Positions 46,294-63,565 of a DNA stretch of 64,000 nt are shown in pieces. The notes under the pieces are model-generated. The model worked only from the letters and a program-made list of their open reading frames with translations, was not told where the DNA came from and ran no database searches. The stretch is from Azospirillum thermophilum (GTDB lineage Bacteria; Pseudomonadota; Alphaproteobacteria; Azospirillales; Azospirillaceae), in contig NZ_CP029356.1 of NCBI RefSeq assembly GCF_003130795.1, forward strand, positions 456,501-520,500, written 5' to 3'. The first letter of the stretch is position 1; the number at the start of each line of letters is the position of its first letter. The position numbers and the translations under genes were made by a program.

Positions 46294-46330
46294 CCGCCTG
46301 CCGGCAGGCTGTTCGGGCTCCCCGGGCCGA

Positions 46331-46612: not shown

Positions 46613-46821
46613 TGGTTTCCCCCTTGTCGTTTATGGGTGTCGTCCATGGGTGTCGGTATGGGCGACGGGGGAGAGGGTATGACAATTTCAAAGGGTATCA
46701 AAAAGCAAAAACTCAACAAAATGAGTCATGAAGTTTGCCGAACGGGAATAAAGGTTGAATAACTGTATTATTCATCCACTCCTATGCGTGTATTCGCCTT
46801 CCCGAGTGCCGGCGGCCCGCG

Positions 46822-46851
46822 GGGGATCGCCGGCATCCGCCGACGATCCCC
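46822..46851 (-). terminator. Hairpin downstream of the bd-oxidase genes
   Basis: GGGGATCG (46822-46829) pairs with CGATCCCC (46844-46851). It lies about 30 bases after the cydB stop on the minus strand. No T tract follows, so it may be a processing or weak termination site. Confidence 0.45.
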
Positions 46852-46881
46852 TTTCCGGTGCGGGCCGAGTCCCTTGGCGGC

Positions 46882-47907
46882 TCAGGAGTAGGTCAGCTCC
46901 GTCGCCTTGCCGCGGAACACGCGGTAGACCAGCAGCGAGTTGCCGATCACCATCGGCAGCACGACCAGCGCCCCGACGAAGATGATCATCAGCGACTCCG
47001 GCGCGCTCGCCGCCTGCCAGACCGTCATCCGCTCCGGCACGACGAACGGGTAGAAGGAATAGGCGAGCCCGTGGAAGCCCAGCGCGAAGATGGCAGCCAC
47101 GACGGCGAAGGGCAGCCAGTTCAGCCCGTCCCCCGCCAGCGGCATCCGGCGCAGCAGAAGCCACAGCCCGGCGAACAGCAGCACCGCCACCGCCGGGATG
47201 GGGGCGAGCAGGAACAGCTCCGGCAGGGCGAACCATTTGGCGAGGATGCGCCCGCTGACCAGCGGCGTGACGGCCGACACGGCGACCATGCCGAGCGCCG
47301 CGAGCCACAGCGTCCGCCGCGCCCAATCGATCGCCCGGCGCTGCAGCGGCCCCTCCGTCTTCAGGATCAGCCATGTGGCGCCGATCAGGGCGTAGGCGGC
47401 GGTCAGGCAGACGGCGACCAGCGCGCCGAACAGCGCGGTCCCCAGACCCGGGGCGAAGCCCAGGATATAGGCGCCGAGCATGTAGCCCTGGCTCAGCGCG
47501 GCGGTCAGGGAGCCGCCGACGAAGGCGCGGTTCCACCAGGGCTTGGCGGCCGGGCCGGCCTTGGCGCGGAATTCGAAGGCGACCCCGCGCAGGATCAGCG
47601 CGATCAGCATCACCGCCACCGGCAGGTAGAGGGCGCCGAGGATGACCCCGTTGGCGGCGGGAAAGGCCACCAGCAGAAGCCCGACCGCCAGCACCAGCCA
47701 GGTCTCGTTGGCGTCCCAGAAGGGGCCGATGGAGGCGACCATGCGGTCGCGCTCGGCCTCGCTGGCCCCGGCCATCAGGATCCCGACGCCGAGGTCGTAG
47801 CCGTCCAGCACGACATAGGCGAGGATGGCGATGCCCATCAGCACCGCGAAGGCGACCGGCAGCCAGTGGCCGGCCCCCGCGGCGGTCTCGATCATCAGCG
47901 TGTTCAT
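46882..47907 (-). CDS. cydB: Cytochrome bd-type quinol oxidase subunit II
   Basis: 341 residues with about nine membrane helices; subunit II of the terminal oxidase. The start LPVAFAVLMGIAILAYVVLDGYDLGVGIL carries the conserved DGYDLGVG motif (about 35-42), followed by FWDANETWLVLA and RGVAFEFR, all typical of CydB/CioB. It begins 9 bases after the subunit I gene. The family is the cyanide-insensitive type by the partner's short Q loop. No cydX, cydD or cydC gene is visible. Confidence 0.94.
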   Translation of the reverse strand: MNTLMIETAAGAGHWLPVAFAVLMGIAILAYVVLDGYDLGVGILMAGASEAERDRMVASIGPFWDANETWLVLAVGLLLVAFPAANGVILGALYLPVAVMLIALILRGVAFEFRAKAGPAAKPWWNRAFVGGSLTAALSQGYMLGAYILGFAPGLGTALFGALVAVCLTAAYALIGATWLILKTEGPLQRRAIDWARRTLWLAALGMVAVSAVTPLVSGRILAKWFALPELFLLAPIPAVAVLLFAGLWLLLRRMPLAGDGLNWLPFAVVAAIFALGFHGLAYSFYPFVVPERMTVWQAASAPESLMIIFVGALVVLPMVIGNSLLVYRVFRGKATELTYS

Positions 47908-47916
47908 GACGTCACC

Positions 47917-49269
47917 TCAGGTGCGGAGCGCGGCAGCGGGGGGAACCGGCAGGGCGGCGGCGGGACGGCCCGCGTCGGCCCCCTTGCGGGCAAGGCGGAA
48001 CAGCACGCCGACATAGGCGGCGAGCAGCCCGGCATAGAGCAGCAGGTAGAGCCCCAGCGTCAGCCCGATGGAGGGGGCCGGCACCGCCGAGGCGGCCTGC
48101 GCGGTGGTCAGCACGCCGGTGACCAGCCAGGGCTGGCGCCCGATCTCGGTCACGTACCAGCCGGCCAGCGTGGCGACCCAGCCGGAGAACACCATGGCGG
48201 CCAGCGCGCGCGCCACCCAGGGCGACAGGCCGCCCGGCCGGCGCCAGAGCTGCCAGGCGGCCGTCCAGGACACCGCCAGCATCAAAAGCCCGACCCCGAC
48301 CATCACGCGGAAGGCGAAGAAGACCGGCGCCACCGGCGGATGCCTGCCCTCGAACCGGTCGAGGCCGGGGACCACGCCGTCCGCGTCGTGACGCAGGATC
48401 AGGCTGGCGCCGTCGGGCACCGCGATCTCGAACCGGTTGTCGCGCGCCTGCTCGTCGGGCAGGGCGAACAGGACCAGCGGGACGTTCGGTCCGGTCCGCC
48501 AGTTGGCCTCCATCGCCGCGATCTTGGCCGGCTGATGCTCCAGCGTGTTCAGGCCGTGCAGGTCGCCGGCCAGGATCTGCACCGGGATCAGCAGGGCCGC
48601 CATCGTCACGCCGGTGCGCAGTGCTGCGGACACGTCGGCGCCGCGGTCGCCGCGCAGCCAGCGGTAGGCCGACAGGCCGGCGACCAGGAAGGCCACCGTC
48701 AGGCCGGAAGCCAGCAGCATGTGGGTCAGCCGGTAGGGCATCGACGGGTTGAAGATGATCGCCCACCAGTCGGTGGCATGGGCGACGCCGTCGCGCATCT
48801 CGAACCCCGCCGGGGTCTGCATCCAGGAATTCAGCGCGATGATCCAGAAGGCCGACACCGAGGTGCCGACCGTCACCACCAGCGTCGCCAGCGTGTGCAG
48901 CCAGTTCGGCACGCGGCGGAAGCCGAACAGCATGATGCCGAGGAAGATCGCCTCGAAGAAGAAGGCGGTCAGGATCTCATAGGCCAGCAGCGGGCCGGCG
49001 ATGTTGCCCACCGTCTGCATGAAGCCCGGCCAGTTGGTGCCGAACTGGAAGGACATGGTGATGCCGGACACCACGCCCAGCGCGAAGGACAGGGCGAAGA
49101 CCTTCACCCAGAACCGGTAGGCATCCATCCACTTCGCGTTCCCGCCGGCATTGAAGCGCAGCTTGAAGAACAGCAGCACCCAGCCCAGCGCGATGGTGAT
49201 CGTCGGGAACAGGATGTGGAAGGAGATGTTCGCCGCGAACTGGAGCCGCGCGAGCACTAAAGCGTCCAT
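47917..49269 (-). CDS. cydA: Cytochrome bd-type (CIO) quinol oxidase subunit I
   Basis: 450 residues, shorter than E. coli CydA (522) because the Q loop is short, as in cyanide-insensitive oxidases (CioA). Conserved features are the N-terminal ARLQFAANISFHILFPTIT with a heme-ligand His, FALGVVSGITMSFQFGTNW, and GWYVTEIGRQPW near 375-386, matching the G-W-x3-E-x-GRQPW motif. It reduces oxygen to water with quinol at the inner membrane, and is suited to microaerobic or respiratory-inhibitor conditions. GGAGAGACGAG precedes the ATG. It follows the regulator gene by 17 bases. Confidence 0.94.
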   Translation of the reverse strand: MDALVLARLQFAANISFHILFPTITIALGWVLLFFKLRFNAGGNAKWMDAYRFWVKVFALSFALGVVSGITMSFQFGTNWPGFMQTVGNIAGPLLAYEILTAFFFEAIFLGIMLFGFRRVPNWLHTLATLVVTVGTSVSAFWIIALNSWMQTPAGFEMRDGVAHATDWWAIIFNPSMPYRLTHMLLASGLTVAFLVAGLSAYRWLRGDRGADVSAALRTGVTMAALLIPVQILAGDLHGLNTLEHQPAKIAAMEANWRTGPNVPLVLFALPDEQARDNRFEIAVPDGASLILRHDADGVVPGLDRFEGRHPPVAPVFFAFRVMVGVGLLMLAVSWTAAWQLWRRPGGLSPWVARALAAMVFSGWVATLAGWYVTEIGRQPWLVTGVLTTAQAASAVPAPSIGLTLGLYLLLYAGLLAAYVGVLFRLARKGADAGRPAAALPVPPAAALRT

Positions 49270-49286
49270 CTCGTCTCTCCGTTTCG

Positions 49287-49874
49287 TTATTCATTGTCGT
49301 GCTCCGCCTTGCCGGACTTCTTCTTGCCGCCGGGCAGGGAGAGGAGCCGGTCCTTCATCTCGAGGACCTTCTGCACCCGTGAACCGAGGGTGAGGAGCTG
49401 GACGAGCCGGTCGGTCTCCAGCCGCTGCACGTCGGCATGCCAGCGTGTCAGCAGCTCGATCAGCTCATGCATCTCGCGCATGCGCTCCTGCGCGTGGCGC
49501 TCCTCCTCGCTGGCCGGCGACTGCATCAGCAGCTCGCGCAGCATGGAAAGGGTGGGATCGACCTCGCGCTTCTTGCGCTCCTCCACCAGGGTCCGGACGA
49601 TCGTCCACAGATCGTCGGGGGTGGAGAAATACTCCCGCCGGTCGCCGGGCCTGTGCTGCAGCCGCACCAGATTCCAGGACTGCAGCTCCTTCAGCCCCAT
49701 GGAGACGTTGGAGCGGGAGAAGCCCAGCCGGTCGCAGATGTCGTCGGCGTTCAGCGCCTCGCTGCTCAGGAACAGCAGGGCATAGATCTGGCCGACGGTG
49801 CGGTTGATGCCCCAGCGGCTGCCCATCTCGCCGAAATGCAGAACGAAGGCCTGGACGAGCGGAGGGAGGTTCAT
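49287..49874 (-). CDS. GbsR/MarR-family transcriptional regulator
   Basis: 195 residues. A winged helix-turn-helix lies at about 35-100: NADDICDRLGFSRSNVSMGL, then LQSWNLVRLQHRPGDRREYF as the wing. The start FGEMGSRWGINRTVGQIYALL is characteristic of the GbsR subgroup. The C-terminal half is helical, ending in a Lys-rich tail. First gene of the oxidase operon, so it probably controls cydAB and itself; a matching inverted repeat sits in the promoter just upstream. Confidence 0.9.
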   Translation of the reverse strand: MNLPPLVQAFVLHFGEMGSRWGINRTVGQIYALLFLSSEALNADDICDRLGFSRSNVSMGLKELQSWNLVRLQHRPGDRREYFSTPDDLWTIVRTLVEERKKREVDPTLSMLRELLMQSPASEEERHAQERMREMHELIELLTRWHADVQRLETDRLVQLLTLGSRVQKVLEMKDRLLSLPGGKKKSGKAEHDNE

Positions 49875-49886
49875 GGCTTCCTCAGT

Positions 49887-49904
49887 TTTCAGGAATTACT
49901 GAAA
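49887..49904. promoter_or_regulatory. Inverted repeat, likely operator of the GbsR/MarR regulator
   Basis: TTTCAG (49887-49892) and CTGAAA (49899-49904), separated by 6 bases, form an 18-bp symmetric site 13 bases before the regulator ATG. It overlaps the -10 box of the predicted promoter, where a bound dimer would block transcription. Confidence 0.6.
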
Positions 49905-49930
49905 TATCGAAACGTTCTAGAGTTTGTAAA
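49902..49930 (-). promoter_or_regulatory. Promoter of the regulator-cydAB operon
   Basis: Minus strand TTTACA (49925-49930) and ATATTT (49902-49907) with 17 bases between. The -10 half touches the inverted repeat at 49887-49904. Confidence 0.6.
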
Positions 49931-50053
49931 GCCCTTGCGCGGCGCTCAAGCTTGCAGCCGGCGCATGGCTCGGCGCAAGGAACGCAAAGCCTTGTTCGGG
50001 ATGTGGGTATCAGGGGTGGCCGGCATGACGTTCTGCCGGCCCGTCCGGCGGCC

Positions 50054-51133
50054 TCAGTTCACCGCCTTCGGCGCCCGTGCCCGCAGGGCGTTCGGCGACA
50101 GGCCGTACCAGCGCCGGAAGGCGCGGCTGAAGGCGCTGACCTCGGAGTAGCCCAGCAGGAAGGCGATGTCGGCCACCGGCACGTGGCGCTGGCGGACATA
50201 GATGGTGGCGAGGTCGCGGCGCACCTGCTCGACGAGGTCGGAGAAGGCCAGCCCCTCGTCCGCCAGCCGGCGCTGCAGCGTCCAGCGGGCGATGCCCAGG
50301 CTGTCGGCCACCTGCTCGACATAGGGGCAGCCTTCGGGCAGCCGGGCGCGGATCTCCGTCTTCACGCGGTCGAGCAGGCCGGGCGGGCCGGTGTCGCGGG
50401 CGATACGGATCAATCGGTCGCTCAGCTCCGTCAGCCGGCCGAGGTCGCCGCCGGGCATCCGGCGGTCGAGGTCGCGGTTGCGCATGATCAGTGCGTTGGT
50501 GCGCTGGCCGAAATGGGCGGGCGCGTCGAACACCGCCTCGTGCTGACGCCATCCTTCCGGGCGGGCATGCTCGAACTGCACCTCCTCCGGCATCCAGCCG
50601 GGGCCGAGGCAGGCGCGCACGACGTTGGCGAACATGCCCATGGTCAGTTCGGCATCCTGCCGCCGCTCCACCACCCGGCCGTCGAGGATGCGGTATTCCA
50701 GCCGCAGCAGATCGCCGTCCCGGCAAAAGCGCGTCTCGGTCGCCTGCTGGTGGAAGGGGAAGAGCCGGGCGAGATTGTCCAGCGCCGCCCCCAGCGTCGG
50801 CGAGGCGAGGGCGATGGAGCCGATCAGCCCCAGCATCTCCGGCTGGAACTGGCGGCCGTAGAGCAGGCCGAAGTTGTCGTTGCCGGTATCCTCGGCCGCC
50901 GCCTCCATCATCGCGACGTAGGAGCCGAGGTCGAGCGGCAGGGTCGGCTGGTCGAGCGAGCGCTCGTCCACCCCGGCCCGGCGCAGCACCCGGTCCGCGC
51001 GGCCGCCCTGCCGTTCGATGAAGCTCGTCACGCCGCAGGCCGCGGCCGCCAGGATGTGGCGCTGCACAATCGGGGGGCAGCGGCCGGGCTCGGAAACAGG
51101 GAATCGCCCAAGGGATAGGCTGTGCGACGTCAT
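50054..51133 (-). CDS. AraC-family transcriptional regulator
   Basis: 359 residues. The N-terminal two-thirds (about 40-240) is the ligand-binding domain of the OruR/ArgR-like AraC group (DNFGLLYGRQFQPEMLGLIG). The C-terminal DNA-binding domain has two helix-turn-helices: VEQVADSLGIARWTLQRRL and VADIAFLLGYSEVSAFSRAF followed by RRWYGLSPNALR. Its gene is the last of the leftward group behind eutB, eutC and the permease, so it is a candidate activator of ethanolamine catabolism (inference). ATG at 51133. Confidence 0.9.
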   Translation of the reverse strand: MTSHSLSLGRFPVSEPGRCPPIVQRHILAAAACGVTSFIERQGGRADRVLRRAGVDERSLDQPTLPLDLGSYVAMMEAAAEDTGNDNFGLLYGRQFQPEMLGLIGSIALASPTLGAALDNLARLFPFHQQATETRFCRDGDLLRLEYRILDGRVVERRQDAELTMGMFANVVRACLGPGWMPEEVQFEHARPEGWRQHEAVFDAPAHFGQRTNALIMRNRDLDRRMPGGDLGRLTELSDRLIRIARDTGPPGLLDRVKTEIRARLPEGCPYVEQVADSLGIARWTLQRRLADEGLAFSDLVEQVRRDLATIYVRQRHVPVADIAFLLGYSEVSAFSRAFRRWYGLSPNALRARAPKAVN

Positions 51134-51306
51134 GACACCGCCCTTTTCCAGACACACGGCGGGATTCAGCAAACCCTGTGCCGGGCGAGGATGCGCCGCA
51201 AGCTTGTACTGTTCAATTGACAAATAGTTTGATAGGGCCGTCATCACGAGGGAGGGCGGCCCCATCGGGCAGGCTCAGGTTCCGGAAGCGGCGCCGGACC
51301 CGCCGC

Positions 51307-52728
51307 TCAGTCGGTCAGGGTGCGCGCCTCGACCTGGGCGAGATCGGCGGCGCTCAGGTTCAGCAGCGGGTCGAGCGTGCCGGTGGTGCGCAGGCCGGCG
51401 GTCAGGCGGTAGATCACCCAGGCCGCCGCCAGCAGCCCGACGAACAGCCCGAAGACCAGCGGGTTGAAGTAGATCATCGTGCCGAGCGCCAGCACCGCCA
51501 GCACCAGCGAGATGGCCGGGAAGACGGGGTAGAAGGGCGCCCGGAAGGGCCGCTCCAGCCCCGGCTCGACGGTGCGCAGGCGGAACAGGCTCGCCATGCT
51601 CATGATGTACATGACGATGGCGCCGAACACCGACATGGTGACGATGTTGGCGGTCAGCGGCTGGCCGCCGATGGTCACCAACTCGTCGGAGTAGATGGCG
51701 GCGATGCCCACCACGCCGCCGGCCAGCGTCGCCCAGTGCGGGGTCCGGCGGGTCGGGTGCAGCGTGGCGAAAACCGGCGGCAGGTAGCCGGCACGGGCCA
51801 GCGCGAAGATCTGCCGCGAGTAGCCCATGATGATGCCGTGGAAGGAGGCGATCAGCCCGAACAGGCCGATCCACACCAGCATGTGCAGCCAGCCGCTCGA
51901 CTCGCCGACCACCGCCTTCATCGCCTGCGGCAGCGGGTCGTTGATGTTGGAGAGCTGCGTCCAGTCGCCGACGCCGCCGGCGAAGATCATGGTGCCGAAG
52001 GCCAGCGCCACCAGCGTCAGGATGCCGCCGATATAGGCGCGCGGCACGGTGCGGCGCGGGTCCTTGGTCTCCTCCGCCGCCATGGCCGCCCCTTCGATGG
52101 CGAGGAAGAACCAGATGGCGAAGGGGATCGCCGCGAAGATGCCGCCGAAGCCCTCCAGCGTCAGCGTGTCGGACCCGGCCCAGCCCTTGGCCGTGAAGTT
52201 CGCCCACGAGAAGCCCGGCGCCACCACGCCCATGAAGACCAGCAGCTCGAAGATCGCCAGCACCGTGACGAACAGCTCGAAGCTGGCGGCGATCGACACG
52301 CCCGCGATGTTCAGCCCCATGAACACCACATAGGCGCCGACCGCCACCAGCTTCGGGTCGAGCGCCGGGAACTGGACGTTCAGGTAGGCGCCGATCGCCA
52401 GCGCGATGGCCGGCGGGGCGAAGACGAACTCGATCAGCGTGGCGAAGCCGGCGAGGAAGCCGCCGTTCGGCCCGAAGGCGCGGAAGCTGTAGGCGAAGGG
52501 TCCGCCGGCATGCGGGATCGCCGTCGTCAGCTCGGTGAAGCTGAAGATGAAGGTGGTGTACATCAGGGCGATGAGGATCGTCGTGACGAGGAACCCCAGC
52601 GTCCCCGCCGCCGCCCAGCCATAGCTCCAGCCGAAATATTCGCCGGAGATGACGAGGCCGACCGCGATGCCCCAGAGCTGGAGACCGCTCAGGCTTTTGC
52701 TCAGTTCGGGTTTGCTGCTCCCGGACAT
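51307..52728 (-). CDS. APC-family amino acid/ethanolamine permease
   Basis: 473 residues with 12 membrane helices. The start LSGLQLWGIAVGLVISGEYF is typical of APC transporters, and AGGPFAYSFRAFGPNGGFLAGF (about 76-97, in parts) fits the ethanolamine permease (Eat/EutP-like) group. The position directly after eutC, 79 bases downstream, supports ethanolamine as the substrate. Import is probably proton-coupled. Conserved FLAIEGAAMAAEETKDPRR lies near 215-233. Confidence 0.88.
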   Translation of the reverse strand: MSGSSKPELSKSLSGLQLWGIAVGLVISGEYFGWSYGWAAAGTLGFLVTTILIALMYTTFIFSFTELTTAIPHAGGPFAYSFRAFGPNGGFLAGFATLIEFVFAPPAIALAIGAYLNVQFPALDPKLVAVGAYVVFMGLNIAGVSIAASFELFVTVLAIFELLVFMGVVAPGFSWANFTAKGWAGSDTLTLEGFGGIFAAIPFAIWFFLAIEGAAMAAEETKDPRRTVPRAYIGGILTLVALAFGTMIFAGGVGDWTQLSNINDPLPQAMKAVVGESSGWLHMLVWIGLFGLIASFHGIIMGYSRQIFALARAGYLPPVFATLHPTRRTPHWATLAGGVVGIAAIYSDELVTIGGQPLTANIVTMSVFGAIVMYIMSMASLFRLRTVEPGLERPFRAPFYPVFPAISLVLAVLALGTMIYFNPLVFGLFVGLLAAAWVIYRLTAGLRTTGTLDPLLNLSAADLAQVEARTLTD

Positions 52729-52807
52729 GGTTTGCCCTCCTGTTCAAGGTTGTGCAGGTGCAATCGGGCGCGGTTCTTCCGTCCGCGCTTCTTGTCGGTA
52801 AGGGGGG

Positions 52808-53578
52808 TCAGCGGCCGTCGAGGACGGGCGGGAGGCCCGCATCCGGCCGCGGCAGGGCGGGGGCGTCCTCCTTCAGGGCCACCCCGGTCAGCTTCAGCCG
52901 CGCCGCCTCGGTGGCGAGCCAGCAGAGCTTGTCCGCCGCCGCCCCGATCGGCAGGCCGTCGGCATGGATGTTGGAGATGCAGTTGCGTTCGGAATCGAGC
53001 CGCCCCGGCTTCGGATCCCAGGTGAGATAGACGCCGAGGGAATCGGCGACCGACAGGCCGGGCCGTTCCCCCACCAGCATGGCGACCAGCCGTGCCCCCA
53101 GCCGCTCCGCCACCTCGTCGCCCAGCGCCACGCGGCCCTGCCCGGCGAGCACCACCGGGGCGATCTCCCAGCCCCGCAGCCGCTCCGCGCAGGCCCGGAC
53201 GAGCGGTGCGGCATGGGCCTGGACCGCGGCGGCCGACAGCCCGTCCGCCACCACGAAGACGATGTCCCAGCGCCCCGCCGCGAGCGCCGCGCGGCTCGCC
53301 TCGTCCAGCCGGCGGCCGAGGTCCGGGCGGCGCAGATAGACCGCGCGGTCGGCGGCGGCGCTGTGGACGCGCAGGCTGGGCAGGGGGGCAAGGTCGGCGG
53401 CCAGCCGGTCGAAATCCACCGCGCCGTGCACGGCGTCCCTGGCGCGGGCATGGGCGAGCTGGAAGTCGAGCAGCGCCGCCGTCGGCAGCCCGTCGCCGCT
53501 GCGCCCCAGCCCGATGCGGGCGCGGGTGGCGGTGCGGAAGCGCGCCCAGGGGTCGGGGGGAAGGCCGCGGTCGGTCAT
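52808..53578 (-). CDS. eutC: Ethanolamine ammonia-lyase small subunit
   Basis: 256 residues, the light chain of the adenosylcobalamin-dependent lyase that splits ethanolamine into acetaldehyde and ammonia. It contains the typical WDIVFVVADGLSAAAVQAHA (about 111-130), MLVGERPGLSVADSLGVYLTW (in two parts, about 168-188) and ERNCISNIHADGLP (about 196-209). The start ATG overlaps the eutB stop (ATGA, 53575-53578), so both subunits are made in step. A longer frame to 53677 lies inside eutB. Confidence 0.95.
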   Translation of the reverse strand: MTDRGLPPDPWARFRTATRARIGLGRSGDGLPTAALLDFQLAHARARDAVHGAVDFDRLAADLAPLPSLRVHSAAADRAVYLRRPDLGRRLDEASRAALAAGRWDIVFVVADGLSAAAVQAHAAPLVRACAERLRGWEIAPVVLAGQGRVALGDEVAERLGARLVAMLVGERPGLSVADSLGVYLTWDPKPGRLDSERNCISNIHADGLPIGAAADKLCWLATEAARLKLTGVALKEDAPALPRPDAGLPPVLDGR

Positions 53579-54969
53579 GCCGGAATCCTCCCGAGCAGGG
53601 CGGAGACGGTGGAGCTCTGGTCCGGCCAGGGCGGCAGGCGGCGCCGGTCGTCCAGCCAGCCGGCGCGCTCCAGCCACGCCTCGAACTCCGGGGCGGGCGG
53701 GCGCTTCAGCAGGTGCCGCAGGCCCAGCACGTCGTGATAGGACAGGCTCTGGTAGTTCAGCATGACGTCGTCGGCACCGGGCACCGCGATCAGGAAGTTC
53801 ACCCCGGCGGTCGCCAGCAGGGTCATCAGGACGTCCATGTCGTCCTGGTCGGCCTCGGCATGGTTGGTGTAGCAGACGTCGCAGCCCATCGGCACGCCGA
53901 GCAGCTTGGCGCAGAAATGGTCCTCCAGCCCGGCGCGGATGATCTGCTTGGCGTCGTAGAGGTATTCGGGGCCGATGAAGCCGACGACCGTGTTGACCAG
54001 CAGCGGGTCGAAGGCCCGCGCCACCGCATAGGCCCGCGCCTCCACCGTCTGCTGGTCCACCCCGTGATGGGCCTCGGCCGACAGGGCGGCCCCCTGGCCG
54101 GTCTCGAAATACATGACGTTGCTGCCGACCGTGCCGCGCTTCAGCGACAGCGCCGCCTCATGCGCCTCGCGCAGCAGGGCGAGGGTGACGCCGAAGCCGC
54201 GGTTCGCCTTCTCGGTCCCCGCGACCGACTGGAAGACGAGGTCGACCGGCGCTCCCCGCTCGATCGCCTGGATGGTCGTGGTGACGTGGGCGAGCACGCA
54301 GGACTGCACGGGGATGTCGAAGCGGCGGCGCACGGTGTCCAGCATCTCCAGCAGGGCGATGCAGGCGGGCAGGTTGTCGGTCGCCGGGTTGATGCCGATC
54401 ACCGCGTCGCCCATGCCGTAGAGCAGCCCGTCGAGCACGGCGCCGGCGATGCCGGTGGGGTCGTCGGTGGGGTGGTTCGGCTGCAGCCGGCTCGACAGCC
54501 GGCCGGGAAGGCCGACCGTGGTGCGGAAGCCGGTGACGACCGGGCATTTGGCGGCGACCGTCACCAGATCGTGGTTGCGCATGATCTTGCTGACCGCCGC
54601 CGCCATTTCCGGCGTCAGGCCGGGGGCGAGCGCCGGGAGGGCGGCAGCGTCGGCCTCGTAGGACAGCAGCCAGTCGCGGAACTGCCCCACCGTCATGTGG
54701 GCGACGGGCCGGAAGGCGCCGGCATCGTGGCTGTCGAGGATGAGGCGGGTGACCTCGTCCGTCTCGTAGGGGATCAGCGGCTCTTCCAGGAAGGTCTTCA
54801 GCGGCAGGTCGGCGAGCACCCGGCGGGCGGCGACCCGCTGCTCGTCGCTCTCCGCCGCGAGGCCGGCCAGCTCGTCGCCCGACCGGCGGGGCGAGGCGCA
54901 GGCCATCACCGCCTTCAGGTCGGCGAACCGGTAGCTGTTCTGTCCCAGCCTGTGCCTGTACTCCGCCAT
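53575..54969 (-). CDS. eutB: Ethanolamine ammonia-lyase large subunit
   Basis: 464 residues, the catalytic heavy chain. Recognisable stretches are LQPNHPTDDPTGIAGAVLDGLL (in parts, about 165-186), GDAVIGINPATDN (about 190-202), HVTTTIQAIERGAPVDLVFQS and MYFETGQGAALSAEAHHGVDQQT near 290-312. Barrel residues for cobalamin and substrate are in these loops. GAGGAAACGCC precedes the ATG at 54969. First gene of the leftward set eutB-eutC-permease-araC. No microcompartment shell or acetaldehyde dehydrogenase gene is next to it. Confidence 0.96.
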   Translation of the reverse strand: MAEYRHRLGQNSYRFADLKAVMACASPRRSGDELAGLAAESDEQRVAARRVLADLPLKTFLEEPLIPYETDEVTRLILDSHDAGAFRPVAHMTVGQFRDWLLSYEADAAALPALAPGLTPEMAAAVSKIMRNHDLVTVAAKCPVVTGFRTTVGLPGRLSSRLQPNHPTDDPTGIAGAVLDGLLYGMGDAVIGINPATDNLPACIALLEMLDTVRRRFDIPVQSCVLAHVTTTIQAIERGAPVDLVFQSVAGTEKANRGFGVTLALLREAHEAALSLKRGTVGSNVMYFETGQGAALSAEAHHGVDQQTVEARAYAVARAFDPLLVNTVVGFIGPEYLYDAKQIIRAGLEDHFCAKLLGVPMGCDVCYTNHAEADQDDMDVLMTLLATAGVNFLIAVPGADDVMLNYQSLSYHDVLGLRHLLKRPPAPEFEAWLERAGWLDDRRRLPPWPDQSSTVSALLGRIPA

Positions 54970-55112
54970 GGCGTTTCCTCCATGTCCTCGTGCTGCGACG
55001 AAGGCAGCGTGACACGGGTGGGCCTGCGGCGAGTTGACACTGGAACACAAAATTCGCAGGAGGGACGGGATGGAGCCGGGCGGTACCGGGCGGCCGTCCG
55101 GCGATCTGCCCG

Positions 55113-55151
55113 AAAAACGAAAGCCCTCCTCCCAGGCGGGAGAAGGGCTTT
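55113..55151 (-). terminator. Terminator of the clpP-like gene
   Basis: AAAGCCCTCCTCCC (55120-55133) pairs with GGGAGAAGGGCTTT (55138-55151) with one mismatch and a 4-base loop. On the minus strand TTTCGTTTTT follows. It lies between the clpP-like stop and the eutB start. Confidence 0.8.
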
Positions 55152-55173
55152 GCGGTGACGATGCGCGGCGGAG

Positions 55174-55800
55174 TTACTTGAACTCTTCCATCGTGCCGAT
55201 GATGTGGCTGACGATGCCGTATTCCTTGGCCTCGTCCGCCAGCATCCAGTAGTTCCGGTCGGTGTCCTTCGACACCTTCTCCAGCGGCTGTCCCGTCTCC
55301 TGCGCGATGATCCGGTTCAGACGCTCGCGCATGCGGATGATCTCCTTCGCCTCGATCGCGATGTCCGTCGCCCGTCCGCCCGTGCCGCCCAGCGGCTGGT
55401 GGATCAGGAAGCGGGTGTTCGGCAGGCAGAAACGGTTTTCCTTCCTGGCCGCCAGATAGATGTGGCAGCCGGCGCTGGCGACCCAGCCCGTGCCCAGCAT
55501 CTTCACCCGCGGCTTGATGAAGCGGATCATGTCGTGGATGGTGTCGCCGGCCTCGACATGGCCGCCGGGGGAGTTCACCACCACGGTGATGTCGTCGTCG
55601 CTCTCATGCGCCAGCGCCAGGAGCTGCGCCGAGACCGCCTGCGCCAGCTTCATGTCGATCTGGCCGAAGATCAGCACGGTGCGCGCCTTGAACAGGTTCT
55701 GCTGCACGGCAGCGAACGGCGGCTGGGCGCTTTCCTTCGACTTCTCGTCCGGTTCCTGTTCGGGCTCGTCGTCGAACCGGGTGTATCCGTCCTGCGCCAT
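55174..55800 (-). CDS. ClpP-family serine protease (ATP-dependent Clp proteolytic subunit-like)
   Basis: 208 residues. The core has VVVNSPGGHVEAGDTIHD (about 75-92), the nucleophile Ser in GTGWVASAGCHIYLAA (about 108), the His in FLIHQPLGGTGGR (about 133) and Asp in KDTDRNYWML (about 183), a complete triad. The N-terminal 30 residues are acidic and Gln/Pro-rich, unlike ClpP, which matches the ClpP-like paralogs often annotated as 'ATP-dependent Clp protease proteolytic subunit' outside the clpPX locus. No clpX is adjacent, so it is probably a second ClpP. GGGAGAAGAA precedes the ATG. Confidence 0.88.
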   Translation of the reverse strand: MAQDGYTRFDDEPEQEPDEKSKESAQPPFAAVQQNLFKARTVLIFGQIDMKLAQAVSAQLLALAHESDDDITVVVNSPGGHVEAGDTIHDMIRFIKPRVKMLGTGWVASAGCHIYLAARKENRFCLPNTRFLIHQPLGGTGGRATDIAIEAKEIIRMRERLNRIIAQETGQPLEKVSKDTDRNYWMLADEAKEYGIVSHIIGTMEEFK

Positions 55801-55999
55801 CGTTGTTCTTCTCCCTGGAATCGGACCTGAGCCGCACTGCGCCTCAATAGCTCTCTCCACATAGCCCGTATCGGGCGGATGTTCAACGTCCCGCCGGGCG
55901 AAAAGCCGGCCCGTCCGCCCGCCGTCCTGCCGGACCGGTTGACGCGGCCTGCGGCCATTCCGCACACTCCCGCTCAGCGGAACGGGCGGGGTGGCGAGG

Positions 56000-56872
56000 A
56001 TGGACGGGGTTGTTGCCGGCGCGGGGGTTTCCGTCCTGATCGCCGCCCACCGGGCGCACGGCACCATCGTCCGCGCGGTGGAAAGCCTGATGGCGCAGAG
56101 CTGGGGTGCATGGGAAGCGGTGATCGCCAGCGACGACGGCACCGACTACCGCGCGACGCTGCTGGCCGCGGGACTCGACGATCCGCGGCTGGTGTTCACC
56201 GGCACCGGCCGCATCGGCGCCGGGGCGCCGGCCGCCCGCAACGCCGCGCTTCGCGCCTCACGCCTGCCGCTGGTCGCTCCGCTCGACGCCGACGACCGCT
56301 TCGCGCCGGACCGCCTCGCCCTGCTGGCGCCGCTCGCCGCCCGGCACGGCGCCGCGGCGGACAATGTCGCGGTGGTGCGCGACAGCGACGGCCGGCCGCT
56401 CTCCACCCTGTTCCCGGAAACCGGGGGCACCGGCTGGCTGGACGCCGACGCGTTCCTGCGAACCTCCGTCCCGATGTTCCCGGTGGTTCGCCGCGACCTC
56501 GACCCGCTGTGGGAGGAGGATGTGACTTTCTGCGACGACGTGGTGTTCAACGTCCGCGTCCTCGACCGCGCCGGCCGCATGGCGCTGGTCCGCCGGCCGC
56601 TCTACGAGTACCGGCAGCGCGAGGGATCCATCACCTTCTCCGCCGACAGCGGCGACCGGGCGGAACGCTGCTACCGCCATGTGCTGGCCCGGCTGGAGGG
56701 CGACGGGCTGGGCATCGCCGATCCGGGCCTGCGCGCCCGCTTCGCCGCGGCGATCGCGGCCAAGCGGGCGCTGAACGCTGCCTTCGAGGAGGCCTTCCGC
56801 GCCGGCCGCTGCGCGAACTTCCAGGAGTTCCTGGCGCTGCGGCCGCAGCCGGCGGCGGAAGGCGTGGTCTAG
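56000..56872 (+). CDS. Family 2 glycosyltransferase
   Basis: 290 residues with the GT2/GT-A fold. The start [26 protein letters not shown] is the typical first strand and helix. Donor-binding Asp residues appear in ASDDGTDY (about 44-51) and the DxD-like [11 protein letters not shown] (about 95-105); ARNAAL precedes the latter. An acidic [21 protein letters not shown] near 170-190 is the acceptor-side segment. The ATG at 56000 is preferred over GTG at 55991. Acceptor unknown. Its stop codon overlaps that of the RTX gene in a shared CTAG. Confidence 0.85.
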
Positions 56873-58353
56873 AAGGGCACCCCGCCTCCGGAGAGCGGCA
56901 GGGGAAGCCCGCCCGCCCCCGACGTGTCGCTGCCGGCGAAGACATAGTCGCGCCCTTCGGTGAAGGCCGGGGCGCCGATCGAAACGCCGGTGACATGCAG
57001 GGAGGAGCCGTCCCTGAAGCTGAAATCGGCGGCCCACTGCACGGTGCCGGGATTGTTGGGCAGCGCACCGAGGCTGGTCACCGTCACCGCCCCGGCGAGG
57101 TCGTCGCGGCCGTATCGGCTGAAGACGATCCGGTCGTTCTCGTCGTTGAACCCGGTCAGCTCGTCGGTGCCGAACCCTCCCACCTCCTTGCTGAAGAGGA
57201 ACAGGTCGCCGGGGTCGCCGAAGTCGACCGCATCCCATCGCGTCGGCGTGCCGCCGCCGTCGATCCGGTCGTCGCCCCGTCCGCCGATCAGCGTATCGCG
57301 GCCGGCGTTGCCGTACTGGAAGAGGTCGTGCGCCGTCAGCACGTCGTCGCCGTCGCCGCCCATCAGCAGGTCGTCGCCCGAACCGCCGGTCAGCGAATCG
57401 GTCCCGTCGCGGCCCAGCAGCACATCGTCGCCCGACTGCCCGAGCAGCGTGTCGTTGCCCGCCATGCCGTCCAGCGTATCGTCCCCACCGCCGCCGGCGA
57501 GCGAGTTGGCGCCGGAATTCCCCCTGATCCCGTTGGACAGCCCGTTTCCGATGAGCAGCGAGCGGGATCCCGGATCCTGCTCCTGCGCGATCATCCGCTC
57601 GACATTGGCGGCCAGCCACCCGCTGCCCTTGATGTAGACGGTGTCGGTCCCGCCGCCGGCGCCCTCCTGGACCGTGTCGCGCAGGGCGTCGATGCGGTCG
57701 GGAGCGGTGCCGTTGATCCAGTAGACGTCGTTGCCGAGGCCGCCGGCCAGCGTGTCGGAGCTGGCGTCGTCGCCGGCATAGAGCGTGTCGTTGCCCGCTC
57801 CGCCGAACAGCCGGTCGCTGCCGCTCCCCCCGCCCATCAGGTCGTTGCCCGTCCCGCCATAGAGCCAGTCGTTGCCGGCGCCGCCCCACATGGTGTCCCG
57901 GCCGTCGAGGCCGAGCAGCGTGTCGTTTCCCGCCAACCCGTCGATGCGGTTGCTGCCGCTGTTGCCGGTGATGCGGTTGGCCAGCTCGTTGCCGGTGGCG
58001 CTGCCGTTGGCGGTGGCCCCGGCCTCCTGCAGCACCAGGTTTTCCAGGTTCCGGCCGAGTATCCAGGAGGACCGGGCATGGACCGTGTCGGTGCCCTGGC
58101 CCCGCTCCTCGATGATGCCGTCCTCCGGGCCGTTGACCCAGAAGCTGTCGTTCCCGGTTCCGCCGATCAGCAGGTCCCGGCTGGCGTCGTCGCCGCCATA
58201 AAGGACGTCGTGGCCCGAACCGCCCTCCACCGTATCCGATCCGTTGCCGCCGCCCAGCGTGTCGTTGCCGTCGCGGCCGAAAATCCATTGCGAGCCGCGG
58301 CCACGGAAGATCCGGTCACTGCCATTGGACCCGTAGACGTATTCGACTGCCAT
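56869..58353 (-). CDS. RTX calcium-binding repeat protein
   Basis: 494 residues made almost entirely of glycine-rich nonapeptides GGxGxDxLx, beginning right at residue 8 with no other N-terminal domain. About 20 repeats are grouped in blocks, for example [21 protein letters not shown]. Two internal modules of about 120 residues (around 48-170 and 190-300) resemble one another, each containing a non-RTX strand pair ending in a GNxLxNxIxGNSG element. The last 110 residues are less repetitive ([36 protein letters not shown]). Such proteins fold in Ca outside the cell and are usually type I secreted; no type I secretion genes are next to it. Confidence 0.9.
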
Positions 58354-58507
58354 TGGAAAGTCCTCCCCGCACGCACGGAGCCGCCATCACCGGCACGGGA
58401 CGAAGTGACGGCTTGATGCGGCGCACCAGTTCTTTGGGTTGTTGCACCGTCATCGACACGATGGCCGTTGACGACGCGCGCACTCCCAAAGCATGAGAGT
58501 GCAACCG

Positions 58508-58530
58508 GGCGAGTCAACTCGCCTGTTTTA
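58508..58530 (+). other. Small hairpin upstream of the RTX gene
   Basis: GGCGAG-TCAA-CTCGCC (58508-58523) followed by TGTTTTA on the plus strand looks like a short terminator but no plus-strand gene needs one. On the minus strand the same bases include TTGACT, which could serve as a -35 box for the RTX gene with TGCTTT about 18 bases on. Both readings are weak. Confidence 0.3.
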
Positions 58531-58565
58531 GTGCTGTGCTTTCGAAATAGGCGCGTCGGGAGCGA

Positions 58566-59363
58566 TTATTTGAAGGCCTTTCCGGGGAAGTCGCCGACCG
58601 GGCTCAGGTGGGTGACCAGCCCGACATCGGGGCGATGGAGGTGCAGGGCCACCGCCGGCGGCTCCTCCGTCCAGCGGTAGGGCGGCTTCGGCGCGAGGTC
58701 GAACGCGATGACGTAGGCGGAGGACGGGGCGACGAAGCCGGTCAGTCCACCCCAGTTCACCGTCGCCTGCCGGTGGATGTGGCCGCAGACCACGCCCAGC
58801 ACCTTGCCGTGCCGGCGCAGCATGGCCCCCAGCTCCTCCGCCCCCTCGATGCAGCGCATGGTGTCGAGGAACTGCATCCCGATGGGGAAGGGGGGATGGT
58901 GCAGGGCGACCAGCGTCGGCCGGTCGGGCTGTTCGGCCAGCCGCGCCGCGATCCAGGCGAGCCGGGCCGGGCAGAGCGCGCCGACCGGCGACCCGGGGAT
59001 CACCGAATCGAGCATCAGGACGCGGACGGGGAACTCCTCCACCGCATAATGCAGGAACTGGCCCTCCATCGGCAGCCAGCCGCGATCGCCGAAGGCCCGG
59101 CGCAACCCGGCGCGGTCGTCATGGTTGCCGGGCAGCACGCGGAACGGGATCTCCAGCGGCTCCAGCCCTTCCAGCACCGCCTCGTACTCGCCCTCGGCCG
59201 GCCCGTTGATCAGGTCGCCGGTGATCAGCACCAGGTCGGGCCGCGGGGTCATCGCGTTCAGATGGGCGACGGTGGCCGCCAGACGCTGGTTGGTGTCCGC
59301 CGCCGGGAACGGGCGGGTGCCCCTGGCGGTGACGTGCAGGTCCGAGATTTGCGCGATCAGCAT
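58566..59363 (-). CDS. Class III cyclic-nucleotide phosphodiesterase-like metallophosphoesterase
   Basis: 265 residues. The full metallophosphoesterase motif set is visible: ISDLH (6-10), GDLI in LVLITGDLING, GNHD in RVLPGNHDDR, HHPP in VALHHPPFPIG and GHIHR in VVCGHIHRQ. Spacing and the N-A-G-type context match CpdA/Icc cAMP phosphodiesterases and glycerophosphodiesterase relatives. It is a cytosolic two-metal hydrolase. The ATG at 59363 was chosen at the first motif strand. Substrate (cAMP or another phosphodiester) is not decided. Confidence 0.88.
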   Translation of the reverse strand: MLIAQISDLHVTARGTRPFPAADTNQRLAATVAHLNAMTPRPDLVLITGDLINGPAEGEYEAVLEGLEPLEIPFRVLPGNHDDRAGLRRAFGDRGWLPMEGQFLHYAVEEFPVRVLMLDSVIPGSPVGALCPARLAWIAARLAEQPDRPTLVALHHPPFPIGMQFLDTMRCIEGAEELGAMLRRHGKVLGVVCGHIHRQATVNWGGLTGFVAPSSAYVIAFDLAPKPPYRWTEEPPAVALHLHRPDVGLVTHLSPVGDFPGKAFK

Positions 59364-59493
59364 GGGAGGTCCGCAATCGGTCGCCGAAGGTCCCGAGCAT
59401 CGCCAAGCCCGGCGCCCGCCGCAACAGCGGAGTGGTGCCGCGGGTGGGAATGGGACGGGCCGGCCGGAAACGGGCGGGTGCGACGATGGCGGC

Positions 59494-60735
59494 TCAGCGC
59501 CGTCCGCCGGCCAGCCGTTTCGCCTCCGGCCGGCCGCGCAGGCGGAGCATGGCCCAGATGCCGACCGCCGGGCCGAGGGCGAGGACGGCCGGGGCGACGG
59601 ACCAGCCGGCCGCCGCGGCAAGCTCCGGCAGCAGATGGATCGACAGCAGCGTCAGCGTGAAGCCGCCGCAGACCTGGGCGGTGAGGATGGTGCCGAGATG
59701 CTGCGGGACCGCCAGTTCGGTGGCGGCGGCGGAGAACTGGGCGGAGTCCGCGACGGCGCTCGCCCCCCAGACGAGGCAGAGGGCGGTGGTCAGCGCCGGG
59801 GCGGCGCCGAAGCTGGTTCCGGCCAGCAGGGCGCAGGAGCCGCTGATCGCCAGCGCCCCGGCGGTCACCGCCGTCCGGCCGATCCGGTCGGCCATCAGCC
59901 CGGCCAGCACGCAGCCGATGCCGCCGACGGCGACCACGGCGAAGGTCGCGCATTTCGCCCAGAAGGCGGCGTCGCCCGGTGGCAGGCTGTGCGCGAAACT
60001 GGCCTGGAGGAACACGCCGACCCAGGCCCACAGGGCGTACAGCTCCCACATGTGGCCGAGGTAGCCGAGATTGACGAGGCGCAGGCTGGGGACGCTCCAC
60101 ACCTCCCACGCCGTGGCGAGCACGAAGCGCCGGGGGGCCGCGGCATTGGGGCCGAGCGACACGGAGGCGGCGACCAGGGCCGAAAGCCCGGCAAGCAGCG
60201 AGGTGAAGGCGATGGTGGAGCGCCAGCCGACCCCGCCGAGCGCGCCGATCAGGTGCGGCGACGCCGACCCCACCGACAGGGCGCCGACCAGCAGCCCGAC
60301 CAGCAGGCCGAGGTCGCCGCGCGCCCAGCTCGCCGCGATCTTCATGCCGACGGGATAGATGCCGGCCATGCAGGCGCCGGTGACGAAGCGCAGGGCCAGC
60401 GCCACCATGCCGGCCGGATCGACCAGAAGCAGTGCTGCGTTGGCCGCCCCGGCCACCAGGGCCGAGGCCATGAAGAGCCGCCGCGGGTCGAGCCGGTCGG
60501 CAAGCCCGAGCAGGGCGCTGACCAGGGTGCCGGCGACGAAGCCGATCTGCACGGCGCTGGTGAAGGCGGCGGCCTGGAAGTCGGTCAGCCCGGCCTCGGC
60601 CCGCAGCGCCGGGACCACCGCCGTGCCGGAGAACCACAGGCTGAGCGCCAGGACCTGCGCCAGTGCAAGGGCGGCGATCGAGCGGCGCTTGGCGTCCCAG
60701 TGATTCTCCCGCGTCTCGATCACCGTGCCGGTCAT
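59494..60735 (-). CDS. MFS transporter
   Basis: 413 residues with 12 membrane helices. The A-loop-like LGLADRLDPRRLFMASALVAG (about 74-94) and the corresponding LAGLMADRIGRTAVTAGALA in the second half (about 265-284) are the MFS signatures. The pattern resembles the small drug/organic-acid carrier group (nitrate/cyanate-like CynX in style), but no substrate is predictable. ATG at 60735. The upstream gene on the same strand is absent; its promoter must lie between 60736 and 61000. Confidence 0.88.
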   Translation of the reverse strand: MTGTVIETRENHWDAKRRSIAALALAQVLALSLWFSGTAVVPALRAEAGLTDFQAAAFTSAVQIGFVAGTLVSALLGLADRLDPRRLFMASALVAGAANAALLLVDPAGMVALALRFVTGACMAGIYPVGMKIAASWARGDLGLLVGLLVGALSVGSASPHLIGALGGVGWRSTIAFTSLLAGLSALVAASVSLGPNAAAPRRFVLATAWEVWSVPSLRLVNLGYLGHMWELYALWAWVGVFLQASFAHSLPPGDAAFWAKCATFAVVAVGGIGCVLAGLMADRIGRTAVTAGALAISGSCALLAGTSFGAAPALTTALCLVWGASAVADSAQFSAAATELAVPQHLGTILTAQVCGGFTLTLLSIHLLPELAAAAGWSVAPAVLALGPAVGIWAMLRLRGRPEAKRLAGGRR

Positions 60736-61008
60736 CGCGCCGCCATGGCGGCGGTTGCGAAGGGTGGGACTGGCCCGCCGGACGGGCGAATGCTGCGAGC
60801 GCGCATGATGCTCTCCTCCGCGACACCTCCGGGACACCGGCCGCCGCTCCGCCGAGCGTGCCGGCACCCAGTGTAAGCGACCGGCGCGCCCGCCGTCGAA
60901 GGATTAGGAGGATCGATCACCAATTTGCAACGGTGATGATGCGTATGACTGAATAGAACCGGACCCGGGGCGTGCGGCGGCGCGGCCGGCGGTGCTGTCG
61001 GTGACCGG

Positions 61009-61346
61009 GCATCAAGGGTCCTGGGCATTGCCGGGCAGGAGGACGGCTTGCCGAACATGCGCAAGTATGGCCAGACCGCGCAGCTTCAATGAGGCCTGGG
61101 CATTACTGCCCAGGAAGACCAGTTTCACGTACAACAATCTGCTGATGCGCCAATGGCAGCTTCAATGAGGCCTGGGCATTACTGCCCAGGAAGACTCGCG
61201 CGCTGGTACACCAGCCTTGATGAGACCGGCCGGCTTCAATGAGGCCTGGGCATTACTGCCCAGGAAGACGGGCGCTGCGCTATAGTCATCGCCACCCAGC
61301 TTGGCGCAGGCTTCAATGAGGCCTGGGCATTACTGCCCAGGAAGAC
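61009..61346 (-). CRISPR. Short CRISPR array: four identical 37-bp repeats plus one degenerate terminal repeat
   Basis: Identical 37-bp repeats lie at 61083-61119, 61159-61195, 61233-61269 and 61310-61346. A related 36-bp copy with about ten changes lies at 61009-61044. The spacers are 38, 39, 37 and 40 bases and unrelated to each other. Each repeat has the perfect hairpin CCTGGGCA-TTAC-TGCCCAGG. On the minus strand the repeat starts GTCTTCC and ends ATTGAAGC, the usual 3' end that becomes the crRNA 5' tag, so transcription is predicted leftward with the leader to the right. The decayed repeat at the left end agrees with this. No cas gene is in the window. Confidence 0.9.
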
Positions 61347-61683
61347 AGGGTACCGCGTACCCCGTTGGAAAGACGCCCGAATCGGAGGCGGATTCGAGCG
61401 GTCCGGGATCTTGACCGATCGGTCAGGAAATCCGGTTCCGTTTCGTTCTCTACGATGTCCAAGAACCCTGGAAAATCAACGCTCTGTCCGTTGCGAGCGG
61501 GTCCGGGGGTTTTGCGGCTACCGGACCGCTCGCACGGCAGCGGCAGCCGGGCGGCATGCTAGCACACGCGCAGCGGGATGCGACAGGGCGATGTTCGCGG
61601 CGGCATGGCGGCACCCTCGGCGGAGGCCGCCCGCCGTCGCCCGGACCGTGCGTGCCCGTCCCCGTCCGGGACCTCGCGGCGCT
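61347..61683. other. Non-coding region beside the array (predicted leader side)
   Basis: No supportable gene. This is the predicted leader side of the array, but it is not strikingly AT-rich. It contains a perfect 14-bp palindrome at 61412-61425, listed separately. The remaining sequence shows no promoter that I would defend. Confidence 0.5.
61412..61425. promoter_or_regulatory. Perfect palindrome resembling a TetR-type operator
   Basis: TGACCGATCGGTCA is its own reverse complement. The form TTGACC-GATC-GGTCA, overlapping a -35-like TTGACC, is common in operators of TetR-family repressors (established pattern). No TetR gene is next to it; the nearest genes are the MFS carrier beyond the CRISPR array and the nitronate monooxygenase gene. 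Confidence 0.5.
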
Positions 61684-62753
61684 TCAGCCCAGCAGCTCCG
61701 CCGCCTCGCGCCACAGCCGCCCGGTCAGCGGGGTGGCGGGCTCGGCGCGGGCGAGCGCGGCGGACTGGCCGGCCCAGGCCTGCATGCGGGCGAGGTCGCC
61801 GGCCTTCGCCGCGGCGCCGCGCATCGCCGCGGTCAGGGCGCGCTGGACCGGGTAGGGGGCGGGCGGCGGGGCGTCCGGCGCGCCGGCGGCGCGGGCATAG
61901 GCGGTGGCGATGCTGCGCCCGGCCCGGCCGCTGAAGGCGCGGGTGACCAGCGTGTCCTCGGCAGCGTCCGCGCCAGCGCGTCGGCCCAGGCGGGGGGCAG
62001 CCCGGCCTCGGGACAGCGCAGGAAGCCGGTGCCGATCTGGACGGCGCTCGCCCCCAGCGTCAGGGCGGCGGCGATGCCGCGGGCGTCGGCGATGCCGCCG
62101 GTCGCCACCACCGGGAGCCCGACCGCATCGGCCACCGCCGGGATCAGGGAGAACAGGCCGACCATGGCGGACTCGGCGCGGGCGGCGTCGAAGCAGCCGC
62201 GATGGCCGCCGGCCTCCATGCCCTGGACCGCGACGACGTCGGCGCCGGCCGCCTCGGCGGCGCGGGCCTCGGCGACGGTGGAGACGTTGGCGATCCACAG
62301 GATGCCGCGCTGCTTCAGCCGGGTGACGAACTCCGCCGGGTAGAGCCCCATGACGGAGGAGACCATCGGCGGGGCCGCCTGCAGGATCGCCTCGCACTGG
62401 GCGGCGAAGTCGCGCAGCGGGGCGTCGGCGGCCTCCGCCGGGACCGGCGGACCCCAGCTGCCGAGGAAGGCGCGGACCTCCGCCTCGCGCGCCGGGTCGC
62501 GGACGGGCGGCGGGTCGGGGATCCACAGGTTGATCTGGAAGGGGCCGCCGGCGCCGGCCCGCACCTCGGCGGCCCAGGCGGCGATCTCCTCCGGTGCCAT
62601 CAGCAGCGCGCCGCAGGCGCCGAGCCCGCCGGCCTTCATGACGGCCATGGAAAGGGAGGGCGGGCAGGCGCCGGCCATCGGGGCCAGCAGGATCGGCAGG
62701 CGCAGGCCGAAACGGGTGCAGAAGGCCTCGGCACGGGCGCGGGCGGCGTTCAT
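61684..62753 (-). pseudogene. Nitronate monooxygenase-like gene, broken by a one-base frameshift
   Basis: FMN-dependent oxidase of the 2-nitropropane dioxygenase family. The first 265 codons from the ATG at 62753 read normally: [30 protein letters not shown] with the catalytic-region His, [17 protein letters not shown] and [15 protein letters not shown]. Near 61965-61967 the frame changes; one added base would restore [20 protein letters not shown] and a normal C terminus to the stop at 61684 (about 356 residues in all). Unrepaired, the protein ends in an unrelated Pro/Ala tail. GGAGACAC precedes the ATG, which overlaps the upstream hydrolase stop (ATGA). Confidence 0.85.
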
Positions 62754-63565
62754 GGCGTGTCTCCTTCGGGGGGGCCGGCTGCGTCGAGGGCGGCATCGAT
62801 GGACGAGGCGGTGAAGACCGGCGCCTCCAACATCATGTAGTGGCCGGCCTCGCGGCAGACCCGGACGGCCAGGGCGGGATAGAGCGGCTCCAGCGCCGCG
62901 CGGATGCGGGGCTCGCGGTAGGGCTCGATGTCGTGCTCGCCCAGCAGGGCCAGGATCGGCAGGGGAAGGCCGGCCGCCTGCGCCGCGAAGTCGGTGCCGG
63001 TGAACATGCGCAGATAGCCGCGCATCGCTTCAGGCCGGGCCGAGCTGCGCAGCAGGGCGAGCTTGCGGTCGAGCCAGACCGCGCCGTAGCGGTGGCCGGT
63101 GCGCGCGGCGATGGCCTCGCGCGCCGCCACATCGTCGTGGATCAGCGCCGCCATGCGGTCGAGCGTCGCCGCGTCGGCCCGGAAGCCGGAGGGCGGCACG
63201 GGGGAGATCAGGACGAGGCGGCCGACCCGCTCCGGCGCGTCGAGCGCGACGCGCTGGGCGATCATGCCGGACATGGAATGGCCGACGAGGTCGAAGCGCC
63301 GGTGCCCCAGCCCGTCCATCAGCCGCAGCACGTCGGCCGAGGCCTCCGCCGCGGTGAAGTCGCCGGGAAGATCGCGCGACAGGCCGTAGCCGCGCAGGTC
63401 GGCGAGGATCCAGGTGAAGCGCCCACCGTCCAGCCACCCAGTCATCGCCGCGTAATTGCGGTGGTCGGCCAGCCATTCATGCAGGACCACCACCGGCCGC
63501 GGGCCGGAGCCGACGCGCAGATGGCCGAGGAGGGAGCGGGAGGGATCGGCGGGGATGGCGTGCAT
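62750..63565 (-). CDS. Alpha/beta hydrolase
   Basis: 271 residues with an alpha/beta-hydrolase fold. Nucleophile Ser is in [12 protein letters not shown] (about 98), Asp in [10 protein letters not shown] (about 214) and His in [10 protein letters not shown] (about 244), a complete triad. The oxyanion segment [13 protein letters not shown] lies near 27-39; the HEW in place of HG is slightly unusual. It is the first gene of a leftward pair with the nitronate monooxygenase gene (4-base overlap). Substrate unknown; esters or small lactones are typical of the family. Confidence 0.85.

Follow-up and report, generated by a model that had tools for sequence, protein, structure and literature searches.

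An array remote from cas genes in Azospirillum thermophilum as a probable source of trans-acting guides for a type I-G CRISPR system

Type I-G CRISPR systems (formerly I-U) have been described from Thioalkalivibrio, in which, according to the accessible part of that report, Csb2 cuts 4 nt 3′ of the base of the repeat hairpin and leaves an 8-nt handle; the same part reports a TTN PAM for type I-G (PMC9638904). Service of several arrays by one Cas locus is also known, and the genomes treated in the available portion of PMC12814883 carry distant arrays that are updated. Upstream of CRISPR arrays, boxA elements were described by Stringer et al., as cited in the consulted section of PMC7862264. Within the genus of interest here, A. 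brasilense strains possess arrays together with a complete class 1 system, the subtype of which goes unnamed in the portion of text available to us (PMC6675989). A search of the open literature on Azospirillum CRISPR (III-B, I-U, arrays) and on orphan or isolated arrays returned no recognisable assignment of the repeat family discussed below to type I-G.

The array considered here lies in a 64,000-nucleotide stretch of the A. thermophilum genome (the window). The assembly totals 6.78 Mb in 9 contigs, and the window falls on contig C5, which is 882,608 bases long. When 24 kb of the window were compared with a plasmid collection, the 12 best matches listed were all to Azospirillum, at 81-83% identity. 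The array consists of four identical 37-bp repeats with start-to-start distances of 76, 74, and 77 (Table 1), all of which exceed the gathering score of the Rfam family CRISPR-DR16 (RF01330) on the minus strand, so that the leader side is the right side (61347 onward). In its near-identical direct repeats (within 23-50 nt), its unique and evenly sized spacers, and the placement of a leader at one end and a decayed repeat at the other, the locus has the makeup of a CRISPR array; a mobile-element origin is recognisable for one of the four window spacers, which matches a phage tape-measure gene. The decayed copy agrees with the repeat at 28 positions when one gap is allowed per row, and without gaps its best score is 24/37, whereas 300 shuffles of 1 kb of flank reached at most 22; its position farthest from the leader is what an ageing array would show. 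The first-pass annotation had described four exact repeats, spacers of 37-40 bases, and a decayed fifth copy, all of which are present in the sequence, and had allowed for a dispersed repeat family with non-unique spacers, which is not what was found: the 14 own-genome spacer matches better than E 0.01 all fall inside six arrays, and the remaining 5, of 19-25 nt, are at chance level. For a wider comparison over 45 genomes (E up to 1), the matches listed extend to about E 2e-6.

Also as originally placed, the array lies between an MFS gene, recognised by Pfam MFS_1, and a nitronate monooxygenase (NMO) gene. The NMO gene is split (61684-62796): residues 5-270 of its ortholog in the congener G022 align in one frame and 270-359 in another, the result of a frameshift or a sequencing error. 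That ortholog (75%) is the only close one found, its 1.5-kb flanks contain no match to the window MFS gene, and neither window neighbour occurs at the array loci among the 35 loci compared. Four other congeners (G003, G011, G024, and G053) each carry an array near one and the same TPR gene, and three of these arrays also adjoin a common MFS gene, indicating that some distant arrays are old and inherited.

Table 1. Features of the window array and its surroundings (window coordinates), followed by the six arrays of the repeat family by contig
Feature	Location	Strand	Remark
MFS transporter gene (Pfam MFS_1)	59494-60867	minus	neighbour
Decayed repeat, leader-far end	about 61009-61045	minus	alignment to repeat
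Spacer 4, 37-38 nt	61046-61082	minus	precedes decayed copy
Repeat 4	61083-61119	minus	exact copy, Rfam CRISPR-DR16
Spacer 3, 39 nt	61120-61158	minus	
Repeat 3	61159-61195	minus	exact copy, Rfam CRISPR-DR16
Spacer 2, 37 nt	61196-61232	minus	target in G043
Repeat 2	61233-61269	minus	exact copy, Rfam CRISPR-DR16
Spacer 1, 40 nt	61270-61309	minus	
Repeat 1 (leader-proximal), 37 nt	61310-61346	minus	exact copy, Rfam CRISPR-DR16
Leader	61347-61570	minus	homologous to five sister-array leaders and congener arrays
Further copy of dyad motif	61390-61404	minus	
boxA-like element GGGTTCTTGGACA, at -122	61456-61468	minus	
GC-rich dyad CGAGCGGT...ACCCGCTCG	61493-61533	minus	
Extended -10-like promoter element (putative)	61556-61567	minus	read from alignment
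Nitronate monooxygenase (NMO) gene, split over two frames	61684-62753	minus	neighbour
Window array	C5		4 repeats
C7 array	C7		6 repeats
C2 array near 1.888 Mb	C2		9 repeats
C2 array near 12.7 kb	C2		6 repeats
C3 array	C3		2 repeats
C6 array	C6		2 repeats

Ten window ORFs (42754-59621) searched with PADLOC yielded a single match, a weak one of Csa3 to a MarR-family regulator, and genome-wide searches returned two Cas1 matches and one Csb1 match, none of them in the window; both results agree with the initial statement that no cas gene lies nearby. The designation 'orphan' built on that statement is correct locally, but it is misleading at the level of the genome, because a type I-G operon is encoded elsewhere and this repeat family is the one that goes with type I-G in the genus; five sister arrays also speak against it. 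Family repeats number 20 genome-wide at up to 3 mismatches and 29 by the Rfam model, the latter making up six arrays on five contigs. They are nearly uniform inside each array and different from array to array, the pattern to be expected of arrays that each grow by duplicating their own first repeat. Among the 30 ORFs nearest the five sister arrays (77 candidates), PADLOC detected no Cas protein, its matches being to a desaturase, QueC, and SEC-C-like tails. A separate observation concerns the C7 array, after whose last repeat a stretch (L105:10151-10185) has 32 of 35 nt in common with an array spacer of G001; this is probably the oldest spacer of the C7 array.

The type I-G operon is located at about C1:188191-196234 (minus strand) and contains the signature genes cas3g, cas8g, cas7g, and csb2, encoding proteins of 878, 782, 337, and 561 aa, respectively. 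All four cover their NCBIfam models nearly end to end without internal stops and are 85-95% identical to their G011 counterparts, at dN/dS values of 0.33 for cas3g, 0.23 for cas8g, 0.16 for cas7g, and 0.26 for csb2. The interference genes thus appear intact and under selection, with the qualification that dN/dS may reflect the time before adaptation was lost. The Cas4-Cas1 fusion and Cas2 of a type I-G locus are represented by remnants only, namely a 135-aa ORF matching positions 2-90 of the 546-position Cas4g-Cas1g profile and a Cas2 segment in which residues 16-62 of 98 are recognisable. Nor does an array adjoin the operon, as C1:172000-211800 contains no family repeat. Modules of this kind, with interference but no adaptation genes, take their type from the effector genes. 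Since only short pieces of cas4g-cas1g and cas2 remain in the assembly, the cognate machinery is unable to acquire spacers. In G011, too, the Cas4 half is partly absent, so damage to adaptation has occurred more than once. G011 also carries a second csb1 with two stops (G011:C7:172086-172550) near a family array.

Neighbourhood and co-occurrence connect this operon with the repeat. Among 45 congeners, 12 carry the Rfam repeat, 9 carry csb1, and 8 carry both, such that the repeat occurs in 8/9 csb1 genomes vs 4/36 others (Fisher p = 2e-5, uncorrected for relatedness and overstating independence, since the congeners are related). The ninth csb1 genome, G052, has a variant family array. Four genomes have the repeat without a csb1 match (G009, G017, G049, and G053); G017 and G049 have one repeat match each, and G053 has long family arrays with no Cas1 match at all and no Csb1, which shows that such arrays can persist without the system. 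Family arrays adjoin type I-G operons in G011, G003, G042, G024, and G051, and, beyond the genus, Methylomagnum ishizawai has two family repeats close to annotated type I-U csb2, csb1, and Cas3'' genes. Sixty-one family repeats were also seen on a plasmid of Candidatus Methylocalor cossyra (L233, OZ026885.1), for which the incomplete gene table annotates no cas gene at record positions 1-66418.

The repeat itself is laid out as 5 nt, an 8-bp stem, a 4-nt loop, CCTC, and ATTGAAGC. Among 26 distinct family repeats, one taken for each array variant, the stem covaries: 96.6% of its cells are paired, and 30 double-sided changes are found vs a shuffled mean of 9.2. Hairpin, 4 nt, and 8-nt handle together equal the Csb2 rule as given in the accessible part of PMC9638904; this geometry is directly visible, and Csb2 would be the enzyme that acts on it.

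The leaders of the six arrays are homologous over about 200 bp, and each includes a boxA-like element. By BLAST, the window leader matches 14 array clusters in other genomes, out of 35 clusters in all, some of which are pieces of one array; a leader alignment, with L184 left out, adds several more clusters, and L120 shows no leader. Transposase-like ORFs are found between array pieces in G003 and G053 (L142:15644-16786 and L144:19507 to L145:411). The conserved leader parts are the extended -10-like element, the GC-rich dyad, the boxA-like element, and the further copy of the dyad motif. In the leader tree (midpoint root), five of the six own leaders form one group (91/90), and four of them another (100/96), which suggests that this lineage has multiplied its array units.

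The 13-nt leader element is called boxA-like from its position and the boxA consensus. In the window, it agrees at 11/13 positions with its counterpart ahead of the 16S gene of Azospirillum sp. B510. Of 25 leaders, which are related and hence not independent cases, 23 have their best match to the rrn element of B510 at -121 to -123, and at least 10/13 positions agree in 22; the other three, all from G011, reach 8-9/13, a level also attained by shuffles. The rrn leaders used for comparison came from three named Azospirillum records, a search of the own genome having found no 16S gene, and the 13-nt elements were picked after inspection of the rrn leader sequences; with 26-28-nt motifs, only one of the three rrn leaders beat shuffles. 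The repeated CGAGCGGT motif may be a DNA site. A structured leader RNA was also considered, given the strong fold of 61310-61570 (z -3.4), and was rejected when a consensus fold of 24 leaders kept only 10 leader pairs.

The spacers point to phage, in the few cases where a target could be assigned. Window spacer 2 matches G043:C3:784845-784881 at 33/37 positions, with mismatches at positions 6, 9, 12, and 15 and an identical run of 22 nt at the spacer 3′ end. The three bases before this protospacer, TTG, fit the TTN PAM. It lies within a 558-aa ORF matching tail tape-measure families, next to genes for tail sheath, tail assembly chaperone, baseplate hub, and baseplate wedge, and 8 of the 10 G043 ORFs tested match virion, tail, or packaging families; by gene content, the target region is a contractile-tail prophage or a phage-derived region. 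Contractile-tail phage genes are seen around the protospacer over L251-L252 (G043:C3:768000-802000). Neither the Rfam repeat nor csb1 was found in G043. The C7 array shares the repeat of the window array, and its spacer 1 agrees with Azospirillum phage Cd at 33/36 positions, with TGT where the PAM would lie, so that the PAM fits TTN in one of these two cases; when 430 family spacers (23 of the 24 own spacers included) were compared with 40 kb of phage Cd, this spacer alone rose above reversed-spacer controls. A spacer of C2b weakly resembles a Pseudomonas phage terminase stretch (32/41). Window spacers 1, 3, and 4 have no convincing target: none turned up for this array in collections of phages and plasmids, exact 20-mers of the four window and three sister spacers gave no convincing target in IMG/VR, and the first 20 nt of spacers 1 and 4 had no exact match there. 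The arrays of G042 and G052 had no phage match.

For small arrays of this kind, the first-pass annotation had listed three possibilities, a remnant, action in trans with a distant system, and a non-defence role, and the evidence favours the second, with the C1 type I-G operon as the distant system. The strongest competitor, which we regard as unlikely, is that the array is a decaying remnant that once served type I-G and that now, without adaptation and perhaps without expression, confers no useful immunity. Such decay would fit the reduced adaptation genes, the small size of the array with its decayed end, the persistence of the G053 arrays in the apparent absence of Cas1 and Csb1, and the four mismatches in the sole window target; it is harder to reconcile with four exact repeats behind a conserved leader and with interference genes that are intact and apparently selected.

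Far less probable is use of the guides by another system of the same genome, be it type I-E, type II-C, or a type III effector. Type I-E and II-C genes are indeed present: one of the two Cas1 loci, on C1, is of type I-E, and the other, of type II-C, is on C5 at a distance of about 148 kb from the array; but the 20 kb around each (L103 and L104) contain no family repeat at up to 12 mismatches. A type III partner was suggested by the ATTGAAGC end and by G001, in which Cmr-like and type I-G genes lie between family arrays, and the repeat occurs in 3/4 congeners with RAMP proteins vs 9/41 others; this association is weak (Fisher p = 0.05), and the candidate was dropped when a RAMP (PF03787) search of the genome gave no match. 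At the G001 locus (L140-L141, G001:C1:12000-51800), where genes were named partly by reading the proteins, arrays of a single repeat family appear to be common to the Cmr-like type III-B genes and the type I-G genes. A regulatory, non-defence role on chromosomal genes, compatible with retention of the array without cognate adaptation genes and with three of four window spacers lacking a known target, has very little to recommend it given that no full-length self match exists (best non-array match 24 nt, E 0.03) and that phage-type DNA is matched by both spacer 2 and a spacer of a sister array.

We therefore consider the window array to be a trans-acting guide array of a type I-G system whose interference genes reside on another contig, and assign this reading a probability of roughly 0.7. 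According to this model, a promoter in the ~200-bp leader would start a precursor RNA, and the boxA-like element would keep RNA polymerase going through the structured repeats. Csb2 (Cas5-6), supplied from C1, would then cut each repeat 4 nt after the hairpin to leave the handle ATTGAAGC, and the crRNAs, bound by Cas7g and Cas8g, would recognise DNA preceded by a TTN PAM for destruction by Cas3g; one window spacer has a suitable target. With the cognate adaptation genes reduced to remnants, the six arrays would form a fixed library, although the Cas1 of type I-E or II-C could in principle act on family arrays. A bolder reading, which we consider less likely than not, is a frozen guide library spread across five contigs, from which a type I-G system without its own adaptation still works; leader-array units would have multiplied in the lineage, in line with the grouping of five of the six own leaders, and would be kept by selection as portable cassettes in a multipartite genome. 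What looked like an orphan array thereby joins a type I-G effector and guides on five contigs in one system open to test, where it can be asked whether arrays far from cas genes are functional, how array units come to multiply within one genome, and whether interference persists after the loss of Cas4-Cas1 and Cas2.

Set beside described systems, the array is of a known kind in an unusual layout. The Rfam CRISPR-DR16 entry covers the repeat only, and the family is tied here to type I-G. Like the arrays of Stringer et al., as summarized in the consulted section of PMC7862264, the present ones have a boxA-like element upstream; unlike those, the leader belongs to type I-G, the element sits at -121 to -123 in most cases, and its antitermination function is putative. 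As in the genomes described in the available portion of PMC12814883, arrays with the same repeat lie far from the Cas locus, but there the distant arrays are updated, whereas here the cognate adaptation genes have been lost. Also close is the type I-G system of Thioalkalivibrio sulfidiphilus, which, in the accessible part of PMC9638904, shares with the present one Cas3, Cas8g/Csx17, Cas7g/Csb1, and Csb2 and a cut geometry of 4 nt beyond the stem with an 8-nt handle, and differs in having a repeat of 36 rather than 37 nt; in A. thermophilum, by contrast, the arrays stand apart from the operon and Cas4-Cas1 and Cas2 survive as remnants.
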